A DNA stretch of 64,000 bases from a bacterium (GTDB lineage: Bacteria > Bacillota > Clostridia > Lachnospirales > Lachnospiraceae): assembly GCA_030535455.1 (NCBI GenBank), contig JAUNJY010000018.1:1-64000 (forward strand), read 5' to 3'. The first letter of the stretch is position 1, and the number at the start of each line of letters is the position of its first letter. Of this stretch, positions 25,040 through 51,880 are shown piece by piece. The notes under the pieces were generated by a model. That model worked only from the letters and a program-made list of their open reading frames with translations, was not told where the DNA came from and searched no databases. Position numbers and translations under genes: made by a program.

Positions 25040-25180
25040 TAGAGATGGTTTGTTGCTCAAACCAGTAAGGAAGATGTTGCTTACGCGACCGGGTTTGGTG
25101 CAGAAAAAGTGTCTTTGACAGAAAGGTTCTTGTTCTCTCAGAAATGAGGGGAGCCTGAATGTCAAAGACACTTTGTAATT
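25040..25180 (+). repeat. Structured repeat family A, copy 4, inside an ABC operon
   Basis: CAAACC (25058-25063) pairs with GGTTTG (25092-25097). Between them are the conserved GGAAGATG and an inner TTGC-TTAC-GCGA hairpin, and TTGC/GCAG closes the outside. A 14-base perfect inverted repeat follows (25107-25120 with 25160-25173). The motif AAAGTGT on the left and ACACTTTGT on the right are shared with the other copies near 36.9, 37.1 and 51.8 kb. Confidence 0.65.
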
Positions 25181-35883: not shown

Positions 35884-36708
35884 ATGGAAGAAGGAAGAAT
35901 AGGGGTTATCGATATGCATACGCATATCTGGCCAGATCAGATAGCAGGCAGGACGGTAAAGGCATTGCAGGACATTGCTGGAATTTTGGCATTTTCAGAT
36001 GGGACTCTTCAAGGACTGAAGGCGTCCATGGTGGATAGCGGAGTGACGCTTAGCGTAATCCTGCCTGTTGTTACAAAGCCAGAGCAGTTTGATACAGTAA
36101 ATAGGGTAGCAGCCAAACTAAATCAAGAAACTGGGATTATATCATTTGGGGGAATACATCCCCTTAATGATCATAAAGAAGAAAAGCTTGCAAAAATCAA
36201 GGGGCTAGGGTTAAAGGGAATTAAGCTCCATCCTGATTATCAGAAGACATATTTTGATGACCCGGACTATCTTACAATTGTGAGAGAGGCACTTGAGATG
36301 GGACTGATTGTATCCACTCATGCAGGAGTAGATGTAGGGCTTCCGTCACCGGTCCATTGCAGTCCAAAACAGGTATGCCATCTATATGATGAACTTTGTC
36401 TTGGGGACAATGTGGATAACAAGCTGATTTTGGCACATACCGGTGGATGCGATTGCTGGGAGCAAGTGTTAGAGATGGTTGCAGGTAAAAAACTGTATCT
36501 GGATATCAGCTTTACAAGAGGCAGGATTTCAGATGATCTTTTTTTAGAAATTGTACATAAACATGGAGCAGACCGAATGATGTTTGGAACGGATTCGCCT
36601 TGGTCTGATGCAAAAGAGACCATTGCATGGGTAAAGGGACTTCCATTGTCGAAAGAAGAAAAAGAGTGTATTTTATATAAGACGGCAAAGAAGCTGTTAT
36701 TTGAGTAA
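35884..36708 (+). CDS. Amidohydrolase-2-like TIM-barrel metal hydrolase
   Basis: The 274-residue product begins with VIDMHTHIWPDQ, giving the first two metal-binding His residues. KLHPDYQKTYFDD, STHAGVDVG, LAHTGGCDCWE and FGTDSPWSD follow, with the last Asp the usual catalytic one. This is the PF04909-type amidohydrolase fold, a group with decarboxylases, lactonases and deacetylases. The substrate cannot be guessed from sequence. AGGGAGAAGG precedes the ATG. It is probably co-transcribed with the CDF exporter, though no functional link is clear. A terminator ends the pair. Confidence 0.83.
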   Translation: MEEGRIGVIDMHTHIWPDQIAGRTVKALQDIAGILAFSDGTLQGLKASMVDSGVTLSVILPVVTKPEQFDTVNRVAAKLNQETGIISFGGIHPLNDHKEEKLAKIKGLGLKGIKLHPDYQKTYFDDPDYLTIVREALEMGLIVSTHAGVDVGLPSPVHCSPKQVCHLYDELCLGDNVDNKLILAHTGGCDCWEQVLEMVAGKKLYLDISFTRGRISDDLFLEIVHKHGADRMMFGTDSPWSDAKETIAWVKGLPLSKEEKECILYKTAKKLLFE

Positions 36709-36709
36709 T

Positions 36710-36755
36710 CAAAAAGGTGTTGCAGAAAGTTAGTACATTCTGCAGCACCTTTTTT
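36710..36755 (+). terminator. Rho-independent terminator after the amidohydrolase gene
   Basis: AAAAAGGTG-TTGCAGAA pairs with TTCTGCAGCACCTTTTT, with T residues following. Confidence 0.93.
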
Positions 36756-36793
36756 AGATATAGGAGCCTGAAAAAGCAGGTGAAGATACTTTG

Positions 36794-36838
36794 TTCAAGA
36801 ATAGGAAACTTCTCTTCGAGCAGCCTCCTATTCTTGAA
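36794..36838. repeat. Hairpin family B, copy 2
   Basis: Thirteen-base perfect arms (TTCAAGAATAGGA, 36794-36806; TCCTATTCTTGAA, 36826-36838) enclose AACTTCTCTTCGAGCAGCC. The core ATAGGA/TCCTAT and the loop match copies at 17.62 and 36.97 kb, whereas the outer stem has changed on both sides. Confidence 0.75.
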
Positions 36839-36854
36839 GAAAGTACCCTAAAAA

Positions 36855-36977
36855 GCAGGTGCAGATTGCGCACTCACTCGAGAGGAAGATGTCGCTGTCG
36901 CAACCGAGTTCGGCGCGGCAAAGTGTGTGTTCTTTGCAGTGATTTTAAGCGCGAGAGTGTGTGGAACATACACTTTT
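36855..36977 (+). repeat. Structured repeat family A, copy 1
   Basis: ACTCG (36876-36880) pairs with CGAGT (36905-36909), GCGC outside it pairs with GCGC at 36913-36916, and the enclosed bases include GGAAGATG and TCGC-TGTC-GCAA. A longer interrupted stem then follows (36920-36932 with 36964-36976) and runs into T6, so this copy may also end transcripts. Confidence 0.68.
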
Positions 36978-37026
36978 TTAATTGATAGGAAATTTCTCTT
37001 TGAGAAGTCTCCTATCAATTAAAAAA
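36974..37026. repeat. Hairpin family B, copy 3
   Basis: Seventeen-base perfect arms (36974-36990 and 37010-37026) share the ATAGGA/TCCTAT core with copies 1 and 2. The loop TTTCTC-TTT-GAGAAG can fold further. It overlaps the T run that ends repeat A copy 1. Confidence 0.75.
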
Positions 37027-37050
37027 AGGCTTTCTAAAAACCAGAAAGCC
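37021..37050 (-). terminator. Rho-independent terminator for the serine dehydratase operon
   Basis: On the minus strand GGCTTTCT pairs with AGAAAGCC around GGTTTTT and runs into T7. Confidence 0.85.
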
Positions 37051-37136
37051 AAGATGCGCACTTACGCGGAAGGAGTTTATCACTTCGTGATCGCGTTCAG
37101 CGCGGAGTGTTTTGCAAGCAAAACACTTTGTTCTTA
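37041..37136 (+). repeat. Structured repeat family A, copy 2
   Basis: ACGCG (37064-37068) pairs with CGCGT (37092-37096), GCGC outside pairs with GCGC, and the inner hairpin is TCAC-TTC-GTGA. AGTGTTTT-GCAAGC-AAAACACT closes the 3' side. CAGAAAGCCAAGATGC is shared exactly with copy 3 at 51.79 kb. The end overlaps the 3' end of sdaAA, which is on the other strand. Confidence 0.68.
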
Positions 37137-38006
37137 ATACTGTTCTAGTGCACTTAGTAATTGTTGTCCGGTAGGTGTGGCAGCTAATCCACCCTCTGCA
37201 GTCTCTTTAAGAGCACAGGGCATGGCAATTCCAATACTTCGCATGGCATCAATCACTTCATCTGCAGGAATTGCACTGGTCAATCCACTAATGGACAGGT
37301 CTGCACTTGTAATTGCATTTACAGCACCAATTACATTACGCTTTACACAAGGGACTTCTACAAGCCCGGCAACAGGATCACACACAAGCCCAAGCAGGTT
37401 TTTCATTGCGATTGCAGCAGCATTTGCAATTGTATGACAGTCTCCACCATTCAGATAGGCGACGCCGGCAGCAGCCATTGCTGAAGCAGAACCGATTTCC
37501 GCCTGACATCCCCCTTCTGCCCCGGATACGAAGGCACGAGAAGAGATTACCTGGCCAACGCCGGCGACTACATACATGGTCTCGATCATTTTCTCCTCAG
37601 AAAGATCAAGATGCTCTTGAAGTGTCAGAAATACTGCAGGAACAACACCGCAAGAGCCGGCAGTAGGAGCCGCAACGATTCGTTTCATACAGGCATTGGA
37701 TTCTGCCATTTTTATTGCTCTAGCCATAATTTTATTTATCACCGAGCCGGAAAGTAATCTTTTATCTGCAATGGCCCGATCAATTTTTGCTCCATCTCCA
37801 CCAACAAGGCCGCTGCTGGATCGAAGTGTTTCGTTATAGGAAGCATCGGAGTTTTGCATGACTTGATAAACTTGTCTCATTTGCTCAAAGGACTCTTCGG
37901 CTGTAACTTGTCGCTCGTACATATCATCGGATTGCACAGCTTCAAAGAAATTAATCTCCATTGTATTACATAGGTTTATGATTTGTTCAATTGACTGAAA
38001 ACTCAT
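37134..38006 (-). CDS. sdaAA: L-serine dehydratase, iron-sulfur-dependent, alpha subunit
   Basis: The alpha subunit carries the catalytic [4Fe-4S] cluster that turns L-serine into pyruvate and ammonia. The 290-residue product shows SSSGLVGGDGAKIDR, AAPTAGSCGVVPAVFL (first cluster Cys region), GAEGGCQAEIGSASAMAAAG and LVCDPVAGLVEVPCVKRN (further Cys ligands), ending in CKE-like residues near PCALKETAEGG. The length suits the two-subunit bacterial enzyme. AAAGGAGG precedes the ATG, set just behind the beta-subunit stop. It is the second gene of the operon, and a terminator lies downstream. Confidence 0.95.
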   Translation of the reverse strand: MSFQSIEQIINLCNTMEINFFEAVQSDDMYERQVTAEESFEQMRQVYQVMQNSDASYNETLRSSSGLVGGDGAKIDRAIADKRLLSGSVINKIMARAIKMAESNACMKRIVAAPTAGSCGVVPAVFLTLQEHLDLSEEKMIETMYVVAGVGQVISSRAFVSGAEGGCQAEIGSASAMAAAGVAYLNGGDCHTIANAAAIAMKNLLGLVCDPVAGLVEVPCVKRNVIGAVNAITSADLSISGLTSAIPADEVIDAMRSIGIAMPCALKETAEGGLAATPTGQQLLSALEQY

Positions 38007-38007
38007 T

Positions 38008-38709
38008 TTAGGCCTCCTTTGTTATGGCAGAGCAGCTTACGGGATCGGGATCAAGCAGGCTTAGATAGGTAACCTTGTTGATACCTTCTAAATGGGCAAT
38101 CCAGTCCACGCCTTGTTTAGGGATTTCCTGATCACATTCAATTACCATGACGGCATTGCCGCCCCGGGCATCCCGATATAGCTGCATGGTTGCAATATTA
38201 ACGGATTTATGAGAAAGCATGGAAGTGACCTCATTTACATGTCCGGGCTGATCTTGGTTATGAACAATTAAGGTAGGATAATCTCCTGTAAAATTAGCGT
38301 CCAGACCGTCAATTTTTACAATCTTAATTGCACCACCACCTATGCTGGAAGCAATAATCTCAAGTTCACGGTTACTGGCACCTTTCAGTATTAACTTGCA
38401 TGTATTTGCATGGACATCTTTTAAAACGGTATGTAAAAACTCGAAATGAAGGCCTTTTTCCTTGGCCAGTTCAAAGCTGTTAGGGATATTCATATTATCT
38501 GGCTTTAGTCCAAGCAGGCCGGCAATCAGTGCACGATCCGTACCATGTCCTTTACCGGTGGCAAGAAAGGATCCATGAAGATAAATCTTGGCATCTAGAA
38601 CCTCTTCACCAAGCAGCCGTCTTGAAATATAGCCAATTTTTACAGCACCAGCAGTGTGAGAGCTGGATGGACCAACCATGACTGGTCCAAGTACATCAAA
38701 TAAGTTCAT
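38008..38709 (-). CDS. sdaAB: L-serine dehydratase, iron-sulfur-dependent, beta subunit
   Basis: The 233-residue product is the partner of SdaAA. NLFDVLGPVMVGPSSSHTAGA is the family N-terminal signature, with GSFLATGKGHGTDRALIAGLLG after it. A C-terminal ACT domain (about residues 150-220, starting PTLIVHNQDQPGHVNEV) probably senses serine, as in related dehydratases. The start has AAAGGAGC before it. Its stop is 1 base before the alpha-subunit gene, so translation is linked. Together they feed serine into pyruvate, and hence the ferredoxin oxidoreductase at 48-51.7 kb. Confidence 0.95.
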   Translation of the reverse strand: MNLFDVLGPVMVGPSSSHTAGAVKIGYISRRLLGEEVLDAKIYLHGSFLATGKGHGTDRALIAGLLGLKPDNMNIPNSFELAKEKGLHFEFLHTVLKDVHANTCKLILKGASNRELEIIASSIGGGAIKIVKIDGLDANFTGDYPTLIVHNQDQPGHVNEVTSMLSHKSVNIATMQLYRDARGGNAVMVIECDQEIPKQGVDWIAHLEGINKVTYLSLLDPDPVSCSAITKEA

Positions 38710-38970
38710 TCTTGTGCTCCTTTTCTATTATCAGTTTGAGTAAAATCTAATAAAATGCTACCACTAGACAGATTTTATAACAATTAGATTGTAAATTTCC
38801 TTTTCTTCTAAACCAAATGTGCTTATAAAGTTACTTTATAAACTCTATTTTGATATAAAACTTTCTTTTTCATCAAATTACCAGCATCTAAAGAAGTGGG
38901 ATGACATACTTTAGCCATGCTTCTTTCTCATAATCAAGAAGCAACATAAAAAGTAGTGGGAGTATTTTAA

Positions 38971-40381: not shown

Positions 40382-40389
40382 GTGTAAGA

Positions 40390-40487
40390 ACACAAGGGAG
40401 CCAGGAAAAAAATGGCTGAGAGTAAGGCGTTGATGTGCCTTTGACCTTTTAACCTGATCTGGGTAATGCCAGCGTAGGAATGTGGTG
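40390..40487 (+). promoter_or_regulatory. TPP riboswitch (THI element)
   Basis: The conserved elements are in order: AAGGGAGCC, then GGCTGAGAGT, and the pyrophosphate-sensing half AACCTGATCTGGGTAATGCC followed by AGCGTAGGAA. It lies between a consensus promoter and an intrinsic terminator, so bound thiamine pyrophosphate should stop transcription. Confidence 0.96.
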
Positions 40488-40505
40488 AAAATAAGAGATT
40501 ACTTT

Positions 40506-48015: not shown

Positions 48016-48142
48016 TTGTGCTATAGTATAAACAATTGTAGAAACATTGTGTTTTAGGTACCTAAAAGCGTTAAATTTTAGACAATTTAATAAGAAAACA
48101 GTCGGATGTTCTATAAATATACTAATAGGAGGATTAAGTAAA

Positions 48143-51100
48143 ATGGCAAGAAAAATGAAAACTATGGATGGTAACATGGCTGCCGCTCACGTTTCTTATG
48201 CATTTACAGACGTAGCAGCAATTTACCCAATCACACCATCTTCACCAATGGCTGATTATACAGACATGTGGTCTACTCAAGGCAGAAAAAATATCTTCGG
48301 CGCACCAGTAATGATGTCCGAAATGCAATCCGAAGCAGGTGCAGCAGGTGCTGTACACGGTTCCTTACAAGCAGGTGCTTTAACAACAACTTACACTGCA
48401 TCTCAAGGGTTATTATTAATGATCCCTAACATGTACAAAATCGCTGGTGAATTATTACCATGTGTATTAGATGTATCTGCTCGTACATTAGCATCCCATG
48501 CATTATCTATCTTTGGCGATCACCAAGATATTTATGCAGCACGTCAAACTGGTTTTGCTATGTTATGTTCAAACAGTGTACAAGAAGCTATGGATTTAGG
48601 AGCTGTTGCTCACTTAACTACAATTGAAGGTCGTGTACCATTTGTTCACTTCTTCGATGGTTTCCGTACTTCTCACGAATTACAAAAAATCGCTATCTGG
48701 GATTACGAAGATCTTAAAGATATGTGTAACATGGACGCAGTTGACGCATTCCGTCGTCGTGCATTAAATCCAGAACACCCAGTAACTCGTGGTACTGCAC
48801 AAAATGCTGACGTATTCTTCCAAGCTCGTGAAGCTTCTAATAAATACTACGATGCGATCCCTGAATTAACTGAAATGTACATGAACAAAGTTAATGAAAA
48901 GATCGGTACTGATTATAAATTATTCAACTACTATGGTGCTCCAGATGCTGAAAAGGTTATCATCGCTATGGGTTCTGTATGTGATACAATCGAAGAAACA
49001 ATCGATTTCATGTTAGAACAAGGCGAAAAAGTTGGTTTAATTAAAGTTAGATTATACCGTCCATTCAGCCAAAAACACTTATTAGCTGCAATTCCTGAAA
49101 CAGTGAAAACTATCACTGTATTAGATAGAACTAAAGAACCAGGTGCTATCGGTGAACCATTATTCTTAGACGTATTAGCTGCAATCAAAGATACTAAATT
49201 CGCTGACGTGAAAGTATTATCTGGTCGTTACGGCTTAGCTTCTAAAGATACTGTTCCTGGAGATATCGTAGCTGCATTCAACAACACTGAAAAAGAAAAA
49301 TTCACTTTAGGTATTAAAGATGATGTTACTTTCCTTTCTTTAGATAGAGTTGAAATGCCAAGCGTTACACCAGAAAGCACAGTTTCTTGTAAATTCTGGG
49401 GTCTTGGAGCTGATGGTACTGTAGGTGCTAACAAAAACTCCATCAAGATCATCGGTGACCACACTGATATGTACGCTCAAGCTTACTTTGATTACGATTC
49501 CAAAAAATCTGGTGGTGTAACTATTTCCCACTTACGTTTTGGTAAAGATAAGATCAAATCAACTTACCTTATCAACAAAGCTGATTTCGTAGCTTGTCAT
49601 ATGGCTCCATATGTAAGAAAATACAACATGGTTCAAGACCTTAAAGATAACGGTACTTTCTTATTAAACACTAACTGGAACATGGAAGAATTAGAAGCTA
49701 ACCTTCCAGGACAAGTTAAGAGATATATTGCTGAGCACAACATCAACTTCTACACTATCGATGGTATCAAAATCGGTAAAGAAATCGGTCTTGGTGGACG
49801 TATCAACACTGTATTACAATCTGCATTCTTCAAATTAGCAAACATCATTCCTGCAGATGAAGCAATTCAATACATGAAAGATGCTGCTACAGCTTCTTAC
49901 TCTAAAAAAGGTGACGACGTAGTTAAAATGAACCACGACGCTATCGAAGCTGGTGCTGAAGCATTAGTTAAAGTAGAAGTTCCAGCAAGCTGGGCTAACT
50001 GTGAAGACGAAGACTTATCTGTAACTGTAACTGGTGACAGAAAAGACGCTGTTGAATATGTAAACTCAATCCAAAATGCAATCAACGCTCAAGATGGTAA
50101 CAACTTACCTGTATCTGCATTCGTAGATTACGCTGATGGTACTTTACCAGCTGGTACTGCTGCATTTGAAAAACGTGGTGTAGCGATTGACGTTCCTACT
50201 TGGGAATCTGATAACTGTATCCAATGTAACTTCTGTTCTTACGTTTGTCCTCATGCTGCTATCCGTTCCGTAGCAATGGATGCTGATCAAGCTGCAAACG
50301 CTCCAGAAGGTGCTTCCATGATCGATATGACTGGTATGCCAGAACACAAATTCGCTATCTCTGTGTCTACTTTAGACTGTACAGGATGTGGATCATGTGT
50401 AAACGTATGTCCAGGTAAAAAAGGAAACAAAGCTCTTTCTATGATTCCAACTGCATCTGCAATGGAACAACAAGAAATGTTCAACTACGGTGTAACTTTA
50501 GAAACTCCAGTAGCTGTTTCTGATAAATTCAAACCAACAACAGTAAAAGGATCTCAATTCCAAAAACCATACTTAGAGTTCTCAGGAGCTTGTGCTGGTT
50601 GTGGTGAAACTCCTTACGCTAAATTAATGACTCAATTATTCGGTGATAGAATGTACATTGCAAATGCAACTGGATGTTCTTCAATCTGGGGTGGTTCTTC
50701 ACCAGCTTCACCATATACAGTAGATGCTAACGGAAGAGGACCAGCTTGGGCTAACTCCTTATTCGAAGATAATGCTGAATTTGGTTTCGGTATGGAACTT
50801 GCTCAAAGAGCATTAAGAAACCGTGTTGTAGAATCTGCTAAAAACTTAGTTGAAGTAGCTGAAAACAACACAGTAAAAGAAGCTTTAGAAAGATACCTTT
50901 CTACTCAAGATTCTTCTACAGAAAATGCAATCGCAACTAGAGAAATGGTGAAAGCTCTTGAAAACTGTGAATGCGATAACGCAGACCGCGCTAACATCTT
51001 AAACAACAAAGATTTCGCTTCTAAGAAATCTCAATGGATCTTAGGTGGTGACGGTTGGTCTTACGATATCGGTTTCGGTGGTGTAGATCACGTATTAGCA

Positions 51101-51679
51101 TCTAACCAAAACGTAAACATCTTAGTATTCGATACAGAAGTTTACTCTAACACAGGTGGACAAGCTTCTAAAGCAACTGGTACTGGTGCAATCGCTCAGT
51201 TCGCAGCTGGTGGTAAAGAAGTTAAGAAGAAAGATCTTGCAGCAATCGCTATGAGTTACGGATATGTATACGTAGCACAAATCGCTCAAGGTGCTGACTA
51301 CAACCAATGTGTGAAAGCATTCGTTGAAGCTGAAAGCTATGATGGACCATCATTAATCATCGCTTACGCTCCATGTATCTCCCACGGTATCAAGGGTGGT
51401 ATGAAAAACGCTCAATTAGAAGAAAAACGCGTTGTTGAATCAGGATACTGGCATTTATTCCGTCATGACCCACGTCGTGAAGCAGAAGGATTAAATCCAT
51501 TCCAATTAGATTCTAAAGAACCAAAAGCAAGCTACAGAGAATTCATCGAAAGCGAAGTTCGTTATAATAGATTATCTCGTACAAATCCAGAGAGAGCAAA
51601 CGAGTTATTCGAAAAAGCAGAAAAAGACGCTAAGAAGAAATACGAAGCACTTGTAAGAAAAGCAAACGAAGTTTACTAA
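48143..51679 (+). CDS. nifJ: Pyruvate:ferredoxin (flavodoxin) oxidoreductase
   Basis: The enzyme oxidises pyruvate with coenzyme A to acetyl-CoA and CO2, passing electrons to ferredoxin. The 1178-residue single-chain form has the N-terminal domain with AAIYPITPSSPMADY, a central domain, a ferredoxin-like domain with two cluster motifs (CIQCNFCSYVCP from residue 692 and CTGCGSCVNVCP) and the C-terminal TPP domain with CAGCGETPYAKL (Cys817), which binds the third cluster. I use ATG 48143, which follows AGGAGG; the frame is open further upstream without a ribosome site. Codon choice is strongly biased (many GCT, TTC, AAC), unlike the neighbours, as expected for a very highly expressed gene. A terminator follows. 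Confidence 0.96.
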   Translation: MARKMKTMDGNMAAAHVSYAFTDVAAIYPITPSSPMADYTDMWSTQGRKNIFGAPVMMSEMQSEAGAAGAVHGSLQAGALTTTYTASQGLLLMIPNMYKIAGELLPCVLDVSARTLASHALSIFGDHQDIYAARQTGFAMLCSNSVQEAMDLGAVAHLTTIEGRVPFVHFFDGFRTSHELQKIAIWDYEDLKDMCNMDAVDAFRRRALNPEHPVTRGTAQNADVFFQAREASNKYYDAIPELTEMYMNKVNEKIGTDYKLFNYYGAPDAEKVIIAMGSVCDTIEETIDFMLEQGEKVGLIKVRLYRPFSQKHLLAAIPETVKTITVLDRTKEPGAIGEPLFLDVLAAIKDTKFADVKVLSGRYGLASKDTVPGDIVAAFNNTEKEKFTLGIKDDVTFLSLDRVEMPSVTPESTVSCKFWGLGADGTVGANKNSIKIIGDHTDMYAQAYFDYDSKKSGGVTISHLRFGKDKIKSTYLINKADFVACHMAPYVRKYNMVQDLKDNGTFLLNTNWNMEELEANLPGQVKRYIAEHNINFYTIDGIKIGKEIGLGGRINTVLQSAFFKLANIIPADEAIQYMKDAATASYSKKGDDVVKMNHDAIEAGAEALVKVEVPASWANCEDEDLSVTVTGDRKDAVEYVNSIQNAINAQDGNNLPVSAFVDYADGTLPAGTAAFEKRGVAIDVPTWESDNCIQCNFCSYVCPHAAIRSVAMDADQAANAPEGASMIDMTGMPEHKFAISVSTLDCTGCGSCVNVCPGKKGNKALSMIPTASAMEQQEMFNYGVTLETPVAVSDKFKPTTVKGSQFQKPYLEFSGACAGCGETPYAKLMTQLFGDRMYIANATGCSSIWGGSSPASPYTVDANGRGPAWANSLFEDNAEFGFGMELAQRALRNRVVESAKNLVEVAENNTVKEALERYLSTQDSSTENAIATREMVKALENCECDNADRANILNNKDFASKKSQWILGGDGWSYDIGFGGVDHVLASNQNVNILVFDTEVYSNTGGQASKATGTGAIAQFAAGGKEVKKKDLAAIAMSYGYVYVAQIAQGADYNQCVKAFVEAESYDGPSLIIAYAPCISHGIKGGMKNAQLEEKRVVESGYWHLFRHDPRREAEGLNPFQLDSKEPKASYREFIESEVRYNRLSRTNPERANELFEKAEKDAKKKYEALVRKANEVY

Positions 51680-51726: not shown

Positions 51727-51776
51727 AAAGAGCCGTTGTGGCGCTGACAAGATTGTCGCGCTATAGCGGTTCTTTT
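51727..51776 (+). terminator. Rho-independent terminator after the oxidoreductase gene
   Basis: An interrupted stem from AAGAGCCG to CGGTTCTT encloses a perfect TGACA/TGTC hairpin, and a TTTTGTT tail follows. Confidence 0.82.
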
Positions 51777-51785
51777 GTTAAAAAA

Positions 51786-51880
51786 CAGAAAGCCAAGATG
51801 CACACTCACCTGACAGAAGAATGTCGCTAGCGCGATCAGGTTCGGCACTGGCATAAAATTGACACACTTTGTATTTTTAT
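51786..51880 (+). repeat. Structured repeat family A, copy 3
   Basis: ACCTG (51808-51812) pairs with CAGGT (51837-51841), with TGC/GCA outside it and an inner TCGC-TAGC-GCGA hairpin. CAGAAAGCCAAGATGC at the left edge is identical to copy 2. The right end ACACTTTGT lies within a promoter (next entry). Confidence 0.68.

Follow-up and report, generated by a model that had tools for sequence, protein, structure and literature searches.

The window, as we call the whole 64,000-nucleotide stretch analysed here, comes from contig C9 of its genome's assembly (G000; 4.35 Mb, 126 contigs, 93.6% complete, 7.7% contamination), and carries copies of one hairpin-forming repeat at four intergenic loci of its + strand. 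Two of them stand in tandem behind a gene at 35884-36708, whose intrinsic terminator (36711..36755, + strand, recognised from the sequence) is likely the original landing site, given the family-wide pattern described below. Next come a degenerate + strand remnant ending in ACTTTGTTC (36761..36796), probably a piece of an older unit, and the whole units of copy 2 (36795..36979) and copy 3 (36974..37132), the left end of copy 3 sitting inside the T-run of copy 2's last hairpin. Copy 4 (51780..51876) lies behind a gene at 48047-51679 that we take to be nifJ-like; the sequence and a comparison with G002, a genome of the same genus, mark the intrinsic terminator of this gene (51727..51779, + strand) as the landing site. 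Copy 1 occupies 25052..25176. Rfam also places a TPP riboswitch on the + strand at 40384-40498. The stretch 36687-38868 of the window, with copies 2 and 3 and a pair of - strand reading frames, is absent from L136, a locus of the closest relative, whose sequence matches both flanks at 83-84% identity. Because the whole stretch is missing there, the site of copy 3 was ruled out as an empty-site test.

Anatomy of the repeat unit

A full unit measures about 150-190 bp and has up to four hairpins in fixed order, HP1 to HP4. The plan common to the copies inspected in G000 and in the complete genome G003 is an upstream terminator with its T-run followed by HP1, HP2, HP3 and HP4, parts being missing in some copies. 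HP1 is a long hairpin whose base pairs a T-run with an A-run, HP2 is a hairpin of 6-8 bp, HP3 carries the strongly conserved ATGCGCACTYRC and TCGGCGC, and HP4 is variable, with a 3' end that is often TTTTTTA or TTTGTTC. An earlier note on this DNA had described four intergenic loci with a shared fold plan and the same orientation; all four are present on the + strand, and the helices it listed can be read there. The element it delimited is mainly HP3, and its boundaries were partial, as copy 3 runs from 36974 to 37132 with four hairpins. The 3' part that it saw recurring (AAAGTGT/ACACTTTGT) does recur, as the variable HP4 ending in a T-run.

The four copies in the window and nine further ones were used to build a covariance model, R1, of 53 positions. 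It finds all four window copies on the + strand with E values of 3e-10 to 2e-18, which are not independent since these copies helped to build it. Copy 3 folds into exactly four hairpins in a row (z -8.8 for RNA, -7.9 for DNA): HP1 at 36974-37026, HP2 at 37028-37050, HP3 at 37056-37102 and HP4 at 37103-37129, with the R1 core at 37053-37105. Many G003 copies match it over about 36974-37132, and blastn of copy 3 against its own genome gave 43 matches including itself, many of them 95-100% identical. Copy 2 (R1 63.8 bits) has HP1 at about 36795-36837, HP2 at about 36843-36862, its HP3 core at 36865-36918 and HP4 at about 36919-36976; its fold is weaker (z -2.3 as DNA, with 3 of 200 shuffles equally good), and several copies in the sister genome G001 match it over about 36801-36979. 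The remaining two copies are shorter by eye. Copy 1 (R1 49.7 bits) consists of a core at 25052-25103 and HP4 at about 25105-25176, with no clear HP1 or HP2, and copy 4 (R1 59.4 bits) has no HP1, a remnant of a cut HP2, a core at 51797-51850 and, on the 3' side, a short stretch that ends in ACACTTTGT.

Hairpin types are combined in many ways; the HP3 type of copy 3, for instance, occurs alongside three types of HP4. This mixing suggests an exchange of modules between copies. The 21 spacings of tandem copies in G000 range over 79-189 bp, all but one of them (20) within 137-189, and the five in G003 over 113-151 bp. Recurrent internal deletions were seen by eye in G000 (C40:3884, C45:46463, C113:71231, C62:83919 and C107:19899), where the left end ATAGGAAA is kept and short matches mark a jump into HP2 or HP3; these look as if a polymerase had skipped hairpins.

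By eye, no terminal repeat links the two ends of the unit as the terminal inverted repeats of a classical MITE would. T-runs flank it on both sides, and duplicated and element-borne T-runs look alike; the left and right T-runs in G000 seem by eye to vary independently. The idea that the right arm of HP1 is copied from the landing site was ruled out, as G003 copies share this arm behind different flanks (by eye). A second repeat, around TGTCTACAGTCTGA, lies upstream of 13 copies, from G000 and G003, among the 208 examined, mostly just before the terminator (for example at L009, L012 and L007, roughly 112-122 bases 5' of the core). With up to one mismatch allowed, it occurs 12 times in the 1.06 Mb of loci analysed.

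Structural conservation and covariation

The earlier note had taken the helix changes among the four copies to be compensated. We evaluated this on 110 distinct HP3 rows, comprising copy 3 and one row per cluster at less than 88% identity (109 from 230 cores), which MAFFT aligned without structure; 13 pairs and 1426 cells were counted. Paired cells made up 89.7%, against 79.3% in 500 shuffles (sd 0.5, maximum 80.9), the covariation score was 0.368 against 0.18 (maximum 0.21) and 32 pair types were seen against a shuffle maximum of 30, for rows that were gathered by a structure-bearing model, which favours paired rows, and with shuffles that leave relatedness in. Double changes were seen in 11 pairs, within the shuffle range (maximum 12). 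Three of the four measures thus place the compensated changes beyond the shuffles. When the partners were slid out of register, 19-54% of cells paired. One pair of the middle helix is GC in 39 rows, CG in 30, TA in 14 and AT in 7.

The other hairpins behave similarly. Perfect arms were found in 43% of distinct contexts for HP1, 53% for HP2 and 63% for HP4, against 0, 5.3 and 0.8% in shuffled sequence; these arms are judged by the shuffled control, the arm-swap comparison being biased because arms were picked for pairing.

Abundance and distribution

Searching for further copies with a covariance model, as the earlier note had advised, yielded at least 148 copies in G000 at E <1e-3 (149 R1 matches, with 150 of 1485 candidates scored). 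Identical cores numbered 8 among 129 G000 copies, 8 among the 50 of G003 and six among 29 in G006, a genome of another genus. In a survey of 41 genomes (R1, E up to 1e-3), ten had matches, including seven members of the family outside the window's own genus. The own genome had 141 and the others of its genus 59, 49 and 0, the last being G002, which is 76% complete and where blastn with copy 2 gave a single short match. None of the 16 genomes from other families of the order matched R1. Within a family sample, at least 39 of 250 genomes matched at 1e-4 (23 candidates scored per genome).

We found no match among phages, plasmids and viral contigs (exact pattern in IMG/VR; blastn of copy 3 against plasmids and of copies 2 and 3 against phages). 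At threshold, Rfam returned only TPP and tRNA for the window, and a permissive search of 36700-37150 returned 30 matches, every one well under its own family's threshold. A search by title and start of abstract, mostly among papers free of subscription, gave no published description of the repeat. In line with the earlier note, which had not recognised a described family, the repeat, itself a mobile element by the evidence below, matches no Rfam or mobile-element family among those tested.

Insertion behind terminators and empty sites

We then asked what precedes the copies, scoring a terminator where a hairpin of -6 kcal/mol or better stood immediately before a T-run. Such hairpins preceded 166 of 208 copies (100/129 in G000, 43/50 in G003 and 23/29 in G006), compared with 28 of 205 control T-runs from the same regions and strand, a loose control drawn from all sequence including coding. 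Several of the 42 copies that lacked a hairpin by this automatic test visibly follow a terminator or the long HP4 of a preceding unit.

Orthologous sites show terminators without the unit. The L025 site measures 164 bp in G000 and 19 bp in the sister genome G001 between flanking matches of 91% and 85% identity, and in G001 it holds the same terminator stem and T-run with no unit. The L020 site adjoins the same tRNA-Val gene in both genomes; in G001 it carries a different terminator hairpin and lacks a unit. Because the terminator is present without the unit at both sites, it belongs to the site and not to the unit. These empty orthologous sites show that the repeat is mobile and has moved since the split from the sister species. 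At the site of copy 4, G002 carries a terminator-like hairpin behind the orthologous gene and no unit, with flanks too diverged for an exact junction.

These observations bear on the earlier note's reading of compensation as selection for structure. Structure is indeed conserved, but the implied host RNA is not supported, given near-identical dispersed copies and empty sites. Since the element is a dispersed mobile repeat, its structure may be kept for mobility, possibly as single-stranded DNA.

Orientation with replication

In eight genomes, 202 of 204 copies point with replication. All 50 copies of G003 do so, lying on the + strand in the arc that starts at 3.66 Mb, crosses zero and ends at 1.11 Mb, and on the - strand between 1.16 and 3.40 Mb; orientation switches at two points, with dnaA (3,496,685) in one of the gaps, and each of the 40 regions examined has a GC skew of matching sign (one weak, -0.03). 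For G000, 129 of the 148 copies could be located in the sequence analysed (19 could not), and 127 of the 129 agree with local GC skew, the two exceptions being C62:52709 and C71:59793, and the 36 contigs with at least two copies hold 122 copies, 2 of them in the minority orientation. Six other genera contributed 25 of 25 copies in agreement, chosen from those listed among 60 matches, mostly sharing contigs and not a random sample. The ninth genome, G006, has 50 copies of the same plan (L215-L234, L268-L287) that are nearly unpolarised, with 32 of 50 pointing with replication.

Genes near the copies mostly run in the same direction (460:61 in G003 and 578:116 in G000, or 83-88%), and the upstream gene is co-oriented for 48 of the 50 G003 copies, reading frames having been called by a simple script whose single gene contexts may err. 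From these gene rates, 50/50 would be expected with p 0.002 and at least 127/129 with p 2e-8, on the assumption of independent copies, which does not hold for tandem ones. Convergent genes, where gene direction sets no preference, enclose 32 copies (8 in G003, 15 in G000, 9 in others), and all 32 follow the fork. Between divergent genes, the figure is 15 of 15 (2 in G003, 10 in G000, 3 in G231). Gene direction therefore explains much, not all, of the polarity. As the sense strand corresponds to the leading strand, it is by reasoning the template of the lagging strand.

Candidate enzymes

No encoded protein was seen in the unit, and we infer that its mover acts in trans. Y1 transposase genes are present in G000 and G006, with a broken match in G001, and G003, complete and with 50 copies, has no Y1_Tnp match at E up to 0.1. 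Resident IS200-like elements share only short, chance-level matches with the unit (best E 0.03), and none of three Y1 loci compared contains a unit. Reverse-transcriptase matches number three in G003, one in G001 and one in G006, and group II intron matches adjoin one such gene each in G003 and G006. G000 (93.6% complete) has no RVT_1 match, and reverse transcriptases were rejected as the common partner. Nor did Rfam find a group II match or domain V ribozyme on the unit, in a search that detects group II in L235 and L236. Y1 is not found in G003 and RVT_1 is not found in G000, so neither class was found in all copy-rich genomes, although both genomes hold identical copies.

Interpretation

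The repeat is dispersed, structurally constrained, mostly placed behind terminators and oriented with the fork in eight of nine genomes. We consider it reasonably probable that it is a new, non-autonomous, protein-free mobile hairpin repeat that, on the lagging-strand template, is attached to the T-runs of terminators. The mechanism proposed here is drawn from position and strand. Insertion would take place at the fork, where single-stranded stretches of the lagging-strand template would expose terminator hairpin and T-run; an enzyme acting in trans, which could be Y1/HUH-like, a group IIC-like reverse transcriptase or of another class, would recognise the folded element and join it at the T-run. 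The arms may covary because this folded form is the substrate. The unit's own terminal hairpin and T-run could then serve as a new landing site at its 3' end, which would explain the tandem arrays.

Rival accounts fare less well. The unit may possibly be a single-strand DNA repeat derived from REP or IS200/IS605 elements and moved by a Y1 transposase, a doubtful proposal that draws on its hairpins, its lagging-template polarity, the T-rich left flank and right end and the Y1 genes of G000 and G006, but leaves 50 copies with 8 identical cores in G003 with no Y1 match, and meets no unit in the Y1 loci compared.

An RNA route is unlikely. It would have the unit transcribed up to its HP4 terminator and the RNA inserted and reverse-transcribed at T-runs by a group IIC-type reverse transcriptase in trans, like a bacterial SINE. 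The target and strand habit is that described for group IIC introns in PMC8919778, the 3' end is a hairpin with a T-run, group II intron matches adjoin reverse-transcriptase genes in G003 and G006, and copies cut at the 5' end exist (copy 4 and, in G000, C4:4611 and C30:28200). However, several shortened copies are missing their middle and still have the left end, no reverse-transcriptase match was obtained in G000, and Rfam gives the unit no group II match.

We find it improbable that the units are retained for the host as back-up terminators, 3'-end RNA elements or replication-oriented landmarks, with selection and not insertion setting their orientation. Terminator-like HP1 and HP4, a location behind genes and strong polarity would suit such a role, but the sister genome has the terminator without the unit at two sites, R1 matches drop from 141 to 0 within one genus (the 0 being the 76% complete G002, with its one short blastn match) and G006 is hardly polarised. 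That the units merely follow the terminators of genes, which lie mostly on the leading strand, is very improbable: co-directed genes would favour it, but the excess over gene rates and the fork-aligned copies between convergent and between divergent genes speak against it.

Returning to the mobile hairpin repeat joined to T-runs on the lagging-strand template, we put forward only tentatively a narrower version, in which a four-hairpin element free of ribozyme and protein shares the landing rule of group IIC introns, swaps hairpin modules and is moved in trans by an enzyme outside Y1 transposases and known reverse transcriptases. Should the mover prove to be new, it would represent a compact insertion system, single-strand or RNA-templated, with a simple rule for its targets. 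Such high-copy repeats shape the intergenic DNA of a large bacterial family, and their near-perfect polarity in most genomes makes them a natural recorder of fork direction. The repeat also offers a direct handle on how small hairpin elements without a ribozyme find terminators.

Comparison with known systems

Group IIC introns, according to PMC8919778, insert immediately after Rho-independent terminators with a strong strand bias relative to replication. The unit shares the terminator target (166/208) and the lagging-template sense strand (202/204, with 32/50 in G006), but at about 150-190 bp it has no ribozyme match and no protein seen, and its own genome is without a reverse-transcriptase match.

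REP/BIME repeats with TnpA-REP (RAYT) are presented in PMC8266576 and PMC6006769 as high-copy extragenic hairpins that form tandem arrays and are recognised as single-stranded DNA, and the latter names the lagging strand as an important source for IS200/IS605 elements. The unit is likewise high-copy, extragenic, tandem and hairpin-forming (DNA z -7.9 for copy 3, -2.3 for copy 2). It differs in having up to four distinct hairpins in fixed order, mostly behind terminators, in keeping to a single orientation within each replichore (eight of nine genomes), and in reaching 50 copies in G003 without a Y1 match. By eye, no conserved GTAG or GTGG tetranucleotide stood out 5' of a hairpin in the G003 and G000 copies inspected.

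Nearest in style are the pneumococcal BOX, RUP and SPRITE repeats, which PMC3049150 describes as small, high-copy, hairpin-forming and taken as parasitic, BOX being modular and SPRITE resembling a terminator. Their strand bias mirrors the coding bias at 60.8-63.3% (PMC3049150), against 202 of 204 for the unit, a distinction drawn from their description. The unit resembles a group IIC intron in its choice of target and a REP repeat in its form, but departs from each in a defining feature.
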